Source: Acidobacteriota bacterium (GTDB lineage Bacteria; Acidobacteriota; Holophagae; Holophagales; Holophagaceae). From it: a stretch of DNA of 64,000 bases. The notes beneath the pieces are model-generated. The model was not told the DNA's origin. It ran no database searches and saw only the letters and a program-made list of their open reading frames with translations. The number at the start of each line of letters is the position of its first letter. The first letter of the stretch is position 1. A program made the position numbers and the translations under genes. The stretch spans positions 1 to 64,000 of the forward strand of contig JACQZU010000020.1 in assembly GCA_016213735.1 (NCBI GenBank), given 5' to 3'. Below are positions 37 through 46,062 of the stretch, in pieces.

Positions 37-71
37 AAGGCAGAAGCGAGGAGCGGCTGGGCCGCGACGGA

Positions 72-118
72 GCGCGGGGGCCCGGGGGGCCCAGGCCGGA
101 GGCCGTTTGCCCCCCGGA
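72..118 (-). repeat. GC-rich palindromic repeat, copy 2 (REP-like)
   Basis: Read on the minus strand it runs TCCGGGGGGC, an 18-base loop, GCCCCCCGGG, then CCCCCGCGC. The same three blocks in the same order occur at 7510-7551 and at 42333-42385 on the plus strand, where only the loop differs. The hairpin stands 5 bases after the secDF stop codon, a position where such an element could stabilise or end the mRNA. There is no T-tract, so an ordinary intrinsic terminator is unlikely. Confidence 0.6.
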
Positions 119-4813: not shown

Positions 4814-5620
4814 ATGAGCACCGACCCGAAGACAGCCCAGCCCCCAGGCGGCGCCAAGCCGCAAAGCCTGGAGGACGCGGTCTACACTCCATCCCTCGCG
4901 TCGGGAAACTCGACGATCAACAAGGGCAATCCCTTGGTGACGATCCCGGTCACCATCCTGGTCTACGGAAGTTTCGTGGGCGTGGGATTCTGGCTGGGAG
5001 CCCAGACCAAGGCTGGAAAGGCCGCCCTGAAAACCGTTGGCGTCACCCTCGACCAGCCCGAGGAGGCTCCGCCACCGCCTCCTCCTCCCCCGCCGCCGCC
5101 GGCTCCCGTGGCCGCCCCCGTGGTGGTGAAAAAGGACTTGGAGCAGAAGGAACCCCCTCCGCCGCCCGATCCCAGCAAGGACATCGTGCCGGACGTGGTG
5201 CCCAAGGAACTGCCCAAGGAGGACCTCTCCGCCAAGTACGCCGTGGGTGGCAATGCAGCCACCGGGGCCCCCTCGGGGGTCGTGGGCGCCGGGACCGGCA
5301 CCCAGTCGGTGATGGGGGCGGCCTCCCAGACCCGGGTCGTGGATTTCGACTTCAGCCAGATCAAGATCAAGGTCCAACCCCCCGCGCCGCCCTACCCGGC
5401 CATGGCCCGCATCGCCAAGATCCAGGGCACGGTGGTGGTGGAGATCGTGGTGGGCACCGACGGCGTTCCCGTCTCGGCCAAGGCCGTGGACGGTCCGCCC
5501 CAGCTCCGGCCCACCGCCGAGAGCTACGCCATGCAGTGGCGCTTCGAGCCCGCCATGCTGAACGGGGTGCCCCAGAACGCCCGATTAAAACTGACCATGC
5601 CCTTCAAGCTGCGCGCCTAG
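4814..5620 (+). CDS. tonB: TonB-family energy-transducing protein
   Basis: It links inner-membrane proton motive force to outer-membrane receptors, or plays the equivalent TolA-like role. Its 268 residues comprise a cytoplasmic N-terminus, one membrane anchor (about 43-60, [14 protein letters not shown]), a proline-rich stretch (about 78-100) and a TonB C-terminal domain (about 185-268). That domain has the typical [19 protein letters not shown] and [18 protein letters not shown] precedes the ATG. ExbB and two ExbD genes follow on the same strand, forming a complete motor unit. TonB versus TolA-like use cannot be settled from sequence. Confidence 0.92.
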
Positions 5621-5642
5621 CGCGGCGGCCCGAAGGCCCGAG

Positions 5643-5661
5643 GCGGGGCCGGACGCCCCGC
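5643..5661 (+). other. Stem-loop in the tonB-exbB spacer
   Basis: A 7-bp GC-only stem (GCGGGGC with GCCCCGC) closes a 5-base loop in the 115-base gap between tonB and exbB. There is no T-tract. It may set relative expression of tonB and the motor genes by mRNA processing; that role is inference. Confidence 0.35.
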
Positions 5662-5735
5662 AAGCCAAGGCGCGACTGCGTCGAACCTGAACCTGAAACC
5701 AAGCGATCCCATCCCCATCGAAAGGAACCCATCCC

Positions 5736-6461
5736 ATGAACCTCCTCGCCAGCACCTTCAACCTCGCCCTCGCCGAAGGCGGCGGCGGCTTCACGCTGAA
5801 GGAATTCTTCATGCAGGCCACGCCCTTCAACAAGGGCATCATGCTCCTGCTGGTCTTCCTGGTGCTGTACCAGGTCTACTACGTCATCGAGCGCCTGGTC
5901 ATGTACAGCCAGTCCGGCGCCGCCTCCGAGAAGTTCCTCAAGCTCTTCATGGACACCCTGCGCCGGGGCGACTTCGAGGCCTCCAAGCGCGCCGCCACCA
6001 CCCACCAGAAGAGCCACATCGCCCTCGTGCTCAAGCACGGGCTGGACATCTTCCAGTACGAGAAGCAGCTCAAGCTCACCAATGCCAACCATGACGTGAT
6101 CCAGCCCGTGGAGCGCGCCATCGAGCGCGGCACCGCCGAGGTCACCGAGCTGCTGAAGAAGGGCATGGCCACCCTGGCGACCATCGCCTCCCTCAGCCCC
6201 TTCATCGGCCTGCTGGGCACGGTCATCGGCATCATCGCCGTGTTCGCCGACCTGAAGGCCAAGGGCGCGGGCGACATCAACGCCCTGGCCGGCTCCATCG
6301 GCGAGGCCCTCGTGACCACGGCCCTGGGCCTCGCGGTCGCGATCCCCGCCGCCTGGTTCTACAACATCCTGACGAACAAGCAGGACCAGATGATCATGAA
6401 CATCAACAACGCCGCCTCCCAGATGGTGGACGAGTTCATCCGCCGCGAGAGCCAGGCCTAG
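5736..6461 (+). CDS. exbB: MotA/TolQ/ExbB proton channel family protein
   Basis: This is the pentameric scaffold of the TonB or Tol motor in the inner membrane. Its 241 residues hold three predicted membrane spans: about 32-52 ([17 protein letters not shown]), 145-170 ([19 protein letters not shown]) and 185-210 ([21 protein letters not shown]). The family signature GLLGTVIGI and the loop [15 protein letters not shown] are present. It sits between tonB and two exbD genes. ExbB and TolQ cannot be told apart by sequence here, but the adjacent tonB favours ExbB. Confidence 0.93.
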
Positions 6462-7504: not shown

Positions 7505-7600
7505 TGTCCTCCGGGGGGCACCGCTTCGCTCGGCCCCCCGGACCCCCGCGCAAGGGACGGGCGAAGCCCGTCCCTTGCGGATGTCCTCCGGTGGGCACCG
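7503..7600. repeat. REP-like palindrome with a 21-base direct repeat
   Basis: The unit TCCGGGGGGC (7510-7519), loop, GCCCCCCGGA (7533-7542), CCCCCGCGC (7543-7551) is another copy of the element at 72-118. A 21-base direct repeat flanks the hairpin at 7550-7578. It begins GATGTCCTCCGG at both 7503-7523 and 7580-7600, with one mismatch. The block fills nearly all of the gap between convergent exbD and murC. Confidence 0.55.
7550..7578. terminator. Strong bidirectional hairpin between exbD and murC
   Basis: A perfect 13-bp stem (GCAAGGGACGGGC with GCCCGTCCCTTGC) closes a GAA loop midway between the stop codons of exbD and murC, which face each other. No T-run follows on either strand, so it may act through mRNA protection or Rho-assisted termination rather than as a classic intrinsic terminator. 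Confidence 0.5.
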
Positions 7601-22848: not shown

Positions 22849-22893
22849 ACCTCCCGGGGGGCCCTTTGTGCCTGGCCCCCAGAAATCTCGCCC

Positions 22894-22918
22894 AGAAGCC
22901 CGGCCGAGCCGGGCTTCT
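22894..22918 (+). terminator. Terminator-like hairpin after pal
   Basis: A perfect 11-bp stem (AGAAGCCCGGC with GCCGGGCTTCT) closes a CGA loop 46 bases after the pal stop. Only a short T-poor tail (GCTTCTCG) follows, so it may be a weak terminator that lowers cpoB expression relative to pal. Confidence 0.5.
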
Positions 22919-22999
22919 GCTTCTCGAGGACGGGACCGCGCCAATGGGGCCCTCCCCCGGGTCCGCGTGCTAGGATTTCGGGGATCTTCCGAGGCCCAG

Positions 23000-41304: not shown

Positions 41305-41381
41305 GGTCCCTTAGCTCAGTTGGTTAGAGCATCTGACTCTTAATCAGAGGGTCCCCGGTTCGAGCCCGGGAGGGACCACCA
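41305..41381 (+). tRNA. tRNA-Lys (anticodon CTT)
   Basis: The acceptor GGTCCCT pairs with AGGGACC, followed by A73 and encoded CCA. The D-arm has AGCTCAGTTGGTTAGAGC. The anticodon stem CTGA/TCAG closes the loop containing CTCTTAA with CTT at 34-36. The T-arm is CCCGG-TTCGAGC-CCGGG. It reads AAG codons. A single tRNA stands here, 99 bases after the dehydrogenase. Confidence 0.97.
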
Positions 41382-42107: not shown

Positions 42108-45107
42108 CTATCCCAGCTCCAGCACATCCAGGCCGTCCTGGCGCACGCTGCGGCCCTGGACGCTGAGCACCTCCCCCACGCGGTAGGGGCGGGTGCGGCG
42201 GGCGAAGGCGTCGGGGAAGCACACCGCCTCGCAGAGGCCGGTCTCGTCCTCGAAGGTGACGAACTGCATGGGCTCGCCCTTCTCGGTGGGGACGACCTTC
42301 TCGGCCACCACGAGCGCCCAGAAGCGAAGCTGTCCGGGGGTTCCGCGCTTCGCTGCGCTGCGCGCATACCCCCGGGCCCCCGCGCCCGGGTCCAGCGAAG
42401 CTGTCCCCGGGCTTTCCCCCCGGTTCACGTCCGCCACCCGGTGGGGGCCGCCCCCGCGGCGCACCCGGGCCAGGGCGGCGGGGTGGATCTCCAGGGTGAG
42501 GTCCAGGGTCTCCAGCTCCAGGTCCGCGCGGTCGAAGGGGTCCGTGGGGCGGGGACGGATGCCCACGGGCACACCGCCCAGGCGCGCCCAGAGCAGCTTG
42601 GTGCGGTCCCCGTCCGGGGCGAAGGCGTCGAAGGCGCCGGCGGCGCAGAGGGCTTCCGCCGTGGGCACACTGAGCTTCACCCGGCCCAGCAGCTCGTCCA
42701 GGCTGGCGAAGGGGCCGTCCCGCTCCCGGGCTTCGAGGAGCGCCTCCACTTCCTCCCGCCTGGCGCCCTTCACCTGCATGAGGCCCACGCGCACCGCCAG
42801 CTCCCCCTCGGCGCGGAAGGGCCAGGCCGAGTGGTTGGCGTCGGGGCCCCGCACCGTGAGCCGGTGGCGCCGGGCGTCCCCCAGGTAGGCCACGGCGGGG
42901 TAGAAGCCGCCCTGGTTGGTGATGACGCTGGCGAAGAAGGCCGCCGGGTGGTGGGCCTTGATCCAGGCGCTCTCGAAGCTCACCTGGGCGTAGCTCGCGG
43001 AGTGGGGCTTGCAGAAGGAGTAGCCCCGGAAGGTGCGGATCATGTCCCAGGCCTCCTCCACAACTCCGGGCCGCACGCCCCGGGCCTCGCAGCCCCGGCG
43101 GAAGCGGGCCTCGAAGAGGGGCAGGCGGGCTTCGCAGCCGGGCTTGCCCAGGAGCTTGCGCAGCTGGTCCGCCTCGAAGTGGGTCCAGCCCGCCAGCTCC
43201 ACCCCCACCTTGATGACGTCCTCCTGGTACACCAGCACCCCGAAGCTCTCCGAGAGGAGGTTCGTGAACACGGGGTCGCTGGGGATGTAGACCTCCTCGC
43301 CCCGGCTGCGCTTCACGTAGCGGTCGATCCAGCGGTTGGCGGCCGGGCGGATGAGGCTGCTGTGGATCACCAGGGTCTCGAAGTCTCCCTTCTTCACCCG
43401 CTGCTGGAGCTGGCGGGTGGCGGGGCTCTCCACGTAGAAGACGCCGATGCTGTCGCCCCGGGCGAGCAGGGCCTGGGTGGCGGGGTCCCTGCGCGCGTGG
43501 GTCCCAGGATCCGGGGCCACCTTGCCCCCCAGGACGGCGTAGGCGTCCCGGATCACCGCCAGGCTGCGGTTCCCCAGCAGGTCCAGCTTCACCAGGCCGT
43601 AGTTCTCCACGCCGTCCTTGTCCCACTGGGTGATGGAGACGCCCTCCTTGGCGGGGGCGGGGCGGAAGGCGGCGTGCTCCCACAGGGGCCCGGGCGTGAC
43701 GATGGTGCCGCCGGGGTGCACGGAGAACTGGCAGAAGTGGCCCCGCAGGGCCGCGGCCAGGCGCAGCACCTCGCCCCAGGCCCTGTTCTCGGAGGCCCGC
43801 TCCAGCCCGCCCTCCCAGCCGCGCACGTAGCGGGCCAGCTGCTTCAGCTCGTTCTCGGGGCGGCCGAAGGCCAGGGCCACCGCCCGCAGGGCGGCCTTGG
43901 ACTTGAAATACACGTGGTTGGAGACCATGGCCACCCGGTCCCGGCCGTAGCGCTGGAAGACCTTGAGGATCACCGCGTCCCGCTCGTCCCAGGCGAAGTC
44001 AATGTCCATGTCCGGCGGGTCCTGGCGCTCCTTCGTGAGGAAGCGCTCGAACATCAGGTGGGTGTCCACGGGGTCCACGTTGCTCAGGCCCAGGGCGTAG
44101 CTCACCAGGCTGGCGGCGCCGCTGCCGCGCCCGCAGATGCGCGTCACCTGGGCGGCCCGCACGATGTCCTGCACCAGGAGGAAGTAGCCCGCGAAGCCCT
44201 TCTCCCGGATGAGCTCCAACTCGCGCTCCATGCGGCTCTCGTGCTCGCCCCCGGGGGCCCCGTAGCGCTGCCGGAGGCCTTCCAGGACCCGTTCCCGCAG
44301 CACCGCGTCCAGGTCCGCGCCGTCCAGCCCCAGGGGCCGGGTGTTCACCCAGGCGCCCCAGTGGATGGACCAGCCGGAGATCCGCTCCAGCACCTCGGCG
44401 GTGGCCCGGGCCACCGCGGGCTCGGCGGCGGGGAAGCGCCGCTCCCAGGCCTCCCGGGGCACGGCGGCCTCCCGGGGGTCCCAGAGGGCTTCCGTGCGGG
44501 CCAGGGTGCCCTGGGTGGCGATGGCGCGCTTGAGGCGGTGCAGCTCCAGGCCCGCGGGGCTTCGGAAACGCAGGGCCTGGGGCGCCACCACCGGCAGCCC
44601 CGCCGCCAGGGCGCGCCGGGCCTCCTGGACCCGGCAGGGATGGGCCAGCAGGGCGGCGTAGCGGCCCTCCCGCAGCAGGGCGTCCAGGCCGTCCAGCTCC
44701 TCCGCCAGGAGGACGCAGCCATCGGGGGGTTCCTCGATCCGGCAGCTCTCCGGGACGGGTTCGCCCAGCCGCGCCGCCTCCGCATGGGCCTGGGAGCTGA
44801 GCAGGCGGTTCAGCGCGGCGTAGCCCGCGTCGCTGCAGGGCAGGGCGCCGACGGCCCGGCCCCGCCACGCGAAGCGGCAGCCCAGGTGGATGCGCAGGGT
44901 GTCCGAAGGGTCCGGCGCCAGGCCCTCCAGCTTCCGCGCCCGCCGCGGCCATTCCAGTTCCTCCCGCAGCTTGGGATAGCCCGAGAGATCCCGGTCCCAC
45001 AGCACCAGGTCCCCGTAGCCCAGGCAGCGCGCGAGCTTCAGCAACTGCTTCGCCGGATAGACCCCCTCCCCAATGGAGAAGTCGGAGATGCCGAGGGCGA
45101 AGGGCAT
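42108..45107 (-). CDS. DnaE-type DNA polymerase III alpha subunit with degenerate PHP domain
   Basis: This 999-residue C-family polymerase is the size of the error-prone DnaE2/ImuC or short DnaE class. The polymerase core is intact: CGRGSGAASLVSYALG, the catalytic pair in PPDMDIDFAWDERDAVI, VKLDLLGNRSLAVI with the third Asp, SFCKPHSASYAQVSFESAW, and helix-hairpin-helix and OB parts (FVTFEDETGLCEAV). The PHP domain has lost its metal ligands: where others read HxHSxxSxLDG it has LGISDFSIGEG, and the TDH strand is LWDRDLSG. About 33 residues before FWALVV are encoded by a REP-like repeat. No imuA or imuB is adjacent. Confidence 0.92.
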   Translation of the reverse strand: MPFALGISDFSIGEGVYPAKQLLKLARCLGYGDLVLWDRDLSGYPKLREELEWPRRARKLEGLAPDPSDTLRIHLGCRFAWRGRAVGALPCSDAGYAALNRLLSSQAHAEAARLGEPVPESCRIEEPPDGCVLLAEELDGLDALLREGRYAALLAHPCRVQEARRALAAGLPVVAPQALRFRSPAGLELHRLKRAIATQGTLARTEALWDPREAAVPREAWERRFPAAEPAVARATAEVLERISGWSIHWGAWVNTRPLGLDGADLDAVLRERVLEGLRQRYGAPGGEHESRMERELELIREKGFAGYFLLVQDIVRAAQVTRICGRGSGAASLVSYALGLSNVDPVDTHLMFERFLTKERQDPPDMDIDFAWDERDAVILKVFQRYGRDRVAMVSNHVYFKSKAALRAVALAFGRPENELKQLARYVRGWEGGLERASENRAWGEVLRLAAALRGHFCQFSVHPGGTIVTPGPLWEHAAFRPAPAKEGVSITQWDKDGVENYGLVKLDLLGNRSLAVIRDAYAVLGGKVAPDPGTHARRDPATQALLARGDSIGVFYVESPATRQLQQRVKKGDFETLVIHSSLIRPAANRWIDRYVKRSRGEEVYIPSDPVFTNLLSESFGVLVYQEDVIKVGVELAGWTHFEADQLRKLLGKPGCEARLPLFEARFRRGCEARGVRPGVVEEAWDMIRTFRGYSFCKPHSASYAQVSFESAWIKAHHPAAFFASVITNQGGFYPAVAYLGDARRHRLTVRGPDANHSAWPFRAEGELAVRVGLMQVKGARREEVEALLEARERDGPFASLDELLGRVKLSVPTAEALCAAGAFDAFAPDGDRTKLLWARLGGVPVGIRPRPTDPFDRADLELETLDLTLEIHPAALARVRRGGGPHRVADVNRGESPGTASLDPGAGARGYARSAAKRGTPGQLRFWALVVAEKVVPTEKGEPMQFVTFEDETGLCEAVCFPDAFARRTRPYRVGEVLSVQGRSVRQDGLDVLELG
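42333..42420 (+). repeat. REP-like palindrome inside the DnaE-type gene
   Basis: TCCGGGGG (42333-42340), a 28-base loop containing CGCTTCGCT, CCCCCGGG (42369-42376) and CCCCCGCGC (42377-42385) follow the same order as at 7510-7551. A second hairpin arm pair (GTCCCCGGGC and the preceding GCCCGGGTCC) continues to about 42415. It lies in frame in the minus-strand polymerase gene and adds a Gly/Ala/Arg-rich stretch before the OB fold without breaking it. Confidence 0.55.
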
Positions 45108-45245
45108 GGGGGAGGGGAGTTCGCGTTTCGGTTTGGGCCGGTGGGGGCGGTCGGGCGAAGCCCCGGTGGACCGGGGATCCGAGTATGGCGTAAAAAAAGC
45201 GAAAATCAAGATCACAGATGACCGGCCCCTGGAGCAGGAGACCCT

Positions 45246-45584
45246 TCAACGATTCCGCTTCGGTTTCGGCTTGGGCTTGGGCGGGGGCAGGTTCCTGGCC
45301 GTCGCGGCCGCCAGCGCGCTCAACCATTCCCCGTCGTCCCAGCGCTCCTCGGGGACCTGGACGTAAAGTTTCGCGCCGGGGTAGGGCGGTCCCATGGGGG
45401 CGCCGGGGAAGAGGCGGTCGGAGGCTTCGGTGGGCTTGAGGAAGAGCTGGTCGTCGGCCACCAAGGCGAAGACCTTGCCGTGGAGGTAGAGGGCGTACTC
45501 CCCGAACATCTTCCGGGCGCTCACGGGGCCGGCCTCCCGGAGCTGGTCCAGCAGGAAGTCCACGGTGCGCTGCTGGGTGGCCAT
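45246..45584 (-). CDS. TfoX N-terminal domain protein
   Basis: The protein has 112 residues. The TfoX-N pattern reads FLLDQLREAGPVSARKMFGEYALYLHGKVFALVADDQLFLKP at about 9-50, then PPYPGAKLYVQVPEERWDD. The tail is a Lys/Pro repeat (PPPKPKPKPKRNR), perhaps for nucleic-acid contact. TfoX/Sxy is tied to competence in gamma-proteobacteria, but stand-alone TfoX-N proteins are widespread with no proven role. It starts 4 bases after the VOC gene ends. Confidence 0.87.
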   Translation of the reverse strand: MATQQRTVDFLLDQLREAGPVSARKMFGEYALYLHGKVFALVADDQLFLKPTEASDRLFPGAPMGPPYPGAKLYVQVPEERWDDGEWLSALAAATARNLPPPKPKPKPKRNR

Positions 45585-45588
45585 GTTT

Positions 45589-46062
45589 TCACTCCCCCCG
45601 GTAGGCCCGTTCCAAGGCGGCCAGGTCCAGTTTGGCCATGCTCCAGACGGCGTGCAGGACCCGGGCCTTGGTGGCGGGGTCACTGCTCTGGAGCCATTCC
45701 CAGAGCACCCCTGGGACGATCTGCCAGGAGAGGCCGTAGCGGTCCCTGATCCAACCGCATTCCACCTCCCCGCCGCCTTCGGAAAGGGCGCTCCAGTAGT
45801 GGTCGATCTCCGCCTGGTTGGCGCAGTTCACCACGAAGGAGACCGCGGGGTTGAAGCGGTGCATCGGGCCGCCGTTGAGGGCGATGAAGTCCTGGCCGTC
45901 CAGGGTGAAGTCCACGGTCATCACGGCGCCGGGCGTCATGGGCGCGTCCTCGGGGAAGTGGTGCACCGCCTTCACCGCGGAGCGGGGGAAGACCGAGGCG
46001 TAGAAACGCGCCGCCTCCTCCGCCTGGGTGTCGAACCAGAGGAAGGGGGTGAGGCGCGGCAT
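45589..46062 (-). CDS. VOC-superfamily protein (PhnB / 3-demethylubiquinone-type)
   Basis: The protein has 157 residues. FLWFDTQAEEAARFYASVFPRS at the N-terminus, MTVDFTLDGQDFIALNGGP and SWQIVPGVLWEWLQ are the PhnB-like signatures. Members of this group are often labelled 3-demethylubiquinone methyltransferase, although they lack a SAM-binding fold. Function is unknown. It is in an operon with the TfoX-N gene. Confidence 0.88.
   Translation of the reverse strand: MPRLTPFLWFDTQAEEAARFYASVFPRSAVKAVHHFPEDAPMTPGAVMTVDFTLDGQDFIALNGGPMHRFNPAVSFVVNCANQAEIDHYWSALSEGGGEVECGWIRDRYGLSWQIVPGVLWEWLQSSDPATKARVLHAVWSMAKLDLAALERAYRGE

Follow-up and report, generated by a model that had tools for sequence, protein, structure and literature searches.

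A palindromic repeat family of Holophagaceae with an in-frame copy in the linker of a DnaE2-like polymerase gene

Conserved protein genes are known to tolerate palindromes that have entered them without disrupting the reading frame, the Rickettsia palindromic elements (RPEs) (PMC2229807, PMC10969869), and one RPE host enzyme is active despite its insert (PMC2229807). REPs lie mostly just 3' of genes and are sometimes intragenic, with hosts that include DnaE2 and the DnaE of R. conorii (PMC3733652, 2013), and one REP insertion site, in recB, is shared by two Xanthomonas (PMC3733652). The CGTC-tagged REPs are defined by a CGTC (or TGTC/CCTC) tag and a stem of 8-9 bp that opens with A/T pairs and encloses a loop of 4-5. 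In-frame palindromic repeats, DnaE2 included, are thus already known (PMC3733652, PMC2229807), and the coding insertion described here is not the exception that the initial annotation of the locus took it for. What is new is a repeat family of Holophagaceae, for which no published description was found in the open-access papers searched, and a single linker that harbors two unrelated repeats.

The locus lies in a stretch of 64,000 nucleotides (the window) from an Acidobacteriota genome, and polymerase homologues place the organism within Holophagaceae, outside the Geothrix group. The host gene (42108-45215, minus strand) encodes a second DnaE-type polymerase of 1035 amino acids with the Pfam domains DNA_pol3_alpha, finger, HHH_6 and OB; a replicative DnaE homologue is encoded on another contig (C23). 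Judged by sequence, the window enzyme appears DnaE2/ImuC-like, closest to the error-prone DnaE2 group. Its nearest NCBIfam model is 'error-prone DNA polymerase' (NF004225, E 1.9e-139, below the cut-off of the model), and in G. oryzisoli an IMS (ImuB-like) gene precedes dnaE2 (L115:767-2167), whereas the genes immediately upstream of the window polymerase are TfoX_N (45246-45683) and others, not imuB. A tRNA gene (41305-41378, plus strand; Rfam tRNA, 72 bits) is located near the 3' side of the polymerase gene.

Just before the OB domain, as initially annotated, the polymerase gene harbors an intact palindromic repeat of 80 bp and two hairpins (42333-42412, plus strand; delimited by covariance model and alignment), which is read antisense and in frame and encodes residues ~935-961. 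Hairpin 1 (42333-42376, plus strand), recognized from the fold, its listed pairs and its arms TCCGGGGGTT...ATACCCCCGGG, leads through the invariant junction CCCCCGGGCCCCCGCG (42369-42384, plus strand) into hairpin 2, CCCGGGTCCAGCGAAGCTGTCCCCGGGC (42385-42412, plus strand; from the fold), the hypervariable half of the repeat. The order within the repeat is hairpin 1 (TCCGGGGGTTCCGCGC...GCGCATACCCCCGGG; TCCGGGGG...CCCCCGGG), junction CCCCCGCG and hairpin 2. Because the second hairpin belongs to the element, the repeat extends to 42412, so that the position first assigned to it stands but its end does not. The repeat is open in nearly all reading frames, with almost no stop codons, and no Rfam match over it was obtained at E <= 1. 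A direct repeat of 13 bp, GGACAGCTTCGCT, occurs at the host junction (42323-42335, minus strand) and, offset by 71 bp, inside hairpin 2 (42394-42406, minus strand). A simple target-site duplication appears unlikely since the two copies are 71 bp apart, lie in differing reading frames and are unique to the window copy, only CCCGG being common to both junctions in the other carriers. The offset is not a multiple of 3, and a deletion between the direct repeats would therefore break the frame; we treat the 13-bp repeat as chance or secondary.

The polymerase copy belongs to a family dispersed through the genome. Three sequence blocks that had been noticed in the same order at three window sites (42333-42384 and 7510-7550 on the plus strand, 118-73 on the minus strand) do recur in that arrangement, three times in the window versus none in 200 first-order Markov shuffles. 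Genome-wide, the pattern TCCGGGGG-N8..38-CCCCCGGA occurs 12 times versus once for its reversed control, and the junction CCCCCGGRCCCCCGCG has 16 exact matches (control 0); the junction is also present in nearly all genomes of a large genus (g4, taken as Geothrix), with controls near zero. The proposed genome scan for further copies was likewise productive: a covariance model trained on 32 repeat copies returned about 58 matches at E <= 1, among which the polymerase copy is third best (68 bits, E 2.8e-8), a rank that is only indicative because this copy was in the training set. In the window, an intergenic copy directly follows a TGA stop codon (7509-7584, plus strand), another (39-118, minus strand) is the first of a tandem array running on to position 1, and a weak covariance-model match (E 0.03) lies at 22852-22926 on the plus strand. 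Contigs start in tandem arrays of this family, as at positions 1-118 of the window and at ends of C1, C8 and C23; since the assembly breaks in these arrays, copy number is probably underestimated.

Genomic copies were located by search and by reading chosen stretches. Among 76 non-polymerase copies, 44 follow a long coding-like frame of their own strand and begin no more than 14 nt past its stop codon (control window 0), and 31 begin exactly 5 nt past it, a regularity that characterizes the Holophagaceae family identified here. A T-rich stretch often lies 3' of hairpin 2. The repeat may plausibly have a role at transcript 3' ends, and the exact spacing suggests either a 3'-end function or an insertion preference linked to the stop codon.

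The label REP-like, used in the initial annotation, holds for a short palindrome that recurs in many intergenic sites close to the 3' ends of genes, as in RAYT-associated REPs, but not in the strict sense. The REP-associated tyrosine transposase that the initial annotation proposed to look for was not found, the Y1_Tnp domain (PF01797) giving no match in the window's genome (97% complete) in a search that was positive in an E. coli control, and a RAYT-driven REP was rejected on this ground; nor is a GTAG tetranucleotide conserved at the repeat end, where aligned copies start with TCCGG. Like GTAG- and CGTC-tagged REPs, the Holophagaceae repeats lie mainly just after genes and are occasionally intragenic, with a DnaE2 host; unlike them, the unit comprises two hairpins, and the repeat is common to a bacterial family and has been remodelled over speciations. 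As to the CGTC tag, many copies have TGTC or CCTC before the stem, with a stem that opens with C/G pairs and with longer loops. The in-frame palindrome in a conserved gene, missing from orthologues, recalls the RPEs. However, RPEs enter many unrelated genes, whereas the polymerase copy is the only one of 39 tested in the window's genome that lies within an open coding frame, and the sequence and architecture, with an invariant GC junction between two hairpins, are distinct. With regard to a MITE, the 13-bp direct repeat at its 71-bp offset is present in the window copy only, and no mobilising transposase was identified.

Alignment with more than 55 Holophagaceae orthologues revealed that most lack the insert, a comparison that the initial annotation had proposed for the residues between RVADV and FWALVV. 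These orthologues follow the pattern RVADV-(7 to 9 residues)-RFWALVV, and the 33 residues between RVADV and RFW in the window polymerase correspond to a net gain of 24-26 residues, not the 33 first proposed, because the repeat-free enzymes already possess a short linker. In an AlphaFold model (mean pLDDT 81.7), residues 934-959 form the sole internal stretch with pLDDT below 50, and the repeat-encoded residues are thus predicted to be disordered between ordered domains.

At least six further species, the majority of them Geothrix, have an insert at this position (loci L114, L115, L120, L121, L122 and L157), the carriers being G. limicola, G. oryzisoli, Geothrix sp. SG200, Geothrix sp. GS30 and the MAGs NC_groundwater_866 and CTSoil_006; several carriers are MAGs. 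Short, long, degenerate and triple versions are found, the last with three tandem in-frame copies and more than 90 extra residues in the single MAG CTSoil_006 (L120, about 5600-5960). One further genome, G078, may hold a remnant of the insert. In G. fermentans, the linker (L131:5695-5853) contains an unrelated palindrome with CACGGAGG arms and many copies in its own genome, indicating that the site was hit at least twice. A linker longer by six residues (AKVLAGEKPGR-type) is common to five species (L117, L118, L119, L125 and L127) and may represent either the scar of a loss or a small insertion that arose independently. That the linker tolerates inserts, as initially suspected, is supported by the predicted disorder, the several lengths among carriers and the unrelated repeat in G. 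fermentans.

The polymerase inserts appear to share one origin, being much closer to one another than to any copy elsewhere in the genomes that carry them. In the hypervariable right half, those of four genomes have a mean mutual score of 30.3, versus 14.5 +/- 3.4 for random genomic copies, and none of 20,000 random draws reached that value. The window insert bears a Geothrix-type TCCGGGGGTTCC arm that is absent from the listed copies of its own genome; it matches the polymerase inserts of other species rather than own-genome copies, and looks inherited, contrary to the recent mobility first read from it. Divergence of the insert cores is similar to that of the flanking gene or slightly lower. 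On the polymerase tree the carriers are dispersed, requiring at least 7 changes, and a single carrier clade was rejected (p-AU 5e-57); this scatter probably reflects one insertion followed by repeated loss or remodelling.

We therefore favor, with a probability of roughly 0.7, a single old insertion into the linker of a DnaE2-type polymerase that was inherited and then repeatedly lost or remodelled. The ancestor of Geothrix and a neighbouring genus would have gained one antisense copy of the family-wide repeat in the short linker that joins the helical C-terminal region to the OB fold, where its frame-keeping length and near absence of stop codons would have produced about 26 disordered residues tolerated by the enzyme. 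The insert, presumably near-neutral, would then have been passed on by vertical descent rather than horizontal exchange and, depending on lineage, would have gained an internal hairpin, decayed, expanded into three tandem copies or disappeared, the losses perhaps occurring through hairpin-assisted slippage between short CCCGG repeats, while an unrelated palindrome would have taken the linker site in G. fermentans.

The many independent losses that this history demands weigh against it, and the main rival, in which short homologous exchanges of the 3' region of the polymerase gene carry the insert from species to species, would account for the scattered carriers without them. Exchange could also explain why window-to-Geothrix pairs are 89-92% identical in the insert versus 79-83% in the flanking gene (P about 0.02-0.06 per pair), and it is kept alive by the insert cores of L115 and L122, which are identical (71/71) while their flanks are 90% identical. 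Yet the flanks of carriers within about 200 bp have no raised identity relative to non-carriers, in a comparison of low power, and insert groupings track the gene tree where resolved, the L115 and L122 inserts pairing together just as their genes do; on balance we regard exchange as unlikely, if a serious contender. The alternative that each lineage independently acquired a genomic copy at a preferred target is exemplified by the unrelated repeat of G. fermentans but is very improbable for the main family, given the cross-species resemblance of its inserts and the arm of the window insert missing from the listed own-genome copies. That the gene has decayed or that the repeat adds nothing to the translated protein, the GC-rich ORF being open by chance, is hardly credible, for although most frames of a high-GC palindrome are open, the OB domain 3' of the insert is conserved in frame at about 65-77% identity to orthologues, and every carrier, isolate genomes included, keeps the reading frame.

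A further and quite doubtful proposal is that palindromic repeats of Holophagaceae repeatedly land and are remodelled in the DnaE2 linker since the polymerase benefits from such inserts or its expression is tuned by them; if true, repeat gain, tandem growth and loss would be a natural means of varying a mutagenic polymerase. One enzyme site here offers a natural series, from empty through single, long, eroded and triple to replaced by an unrelated repeat, and as isolates of the group are in culture, what becomes of in-frame palindromic repeats once they are part of a protein can be tested directly.
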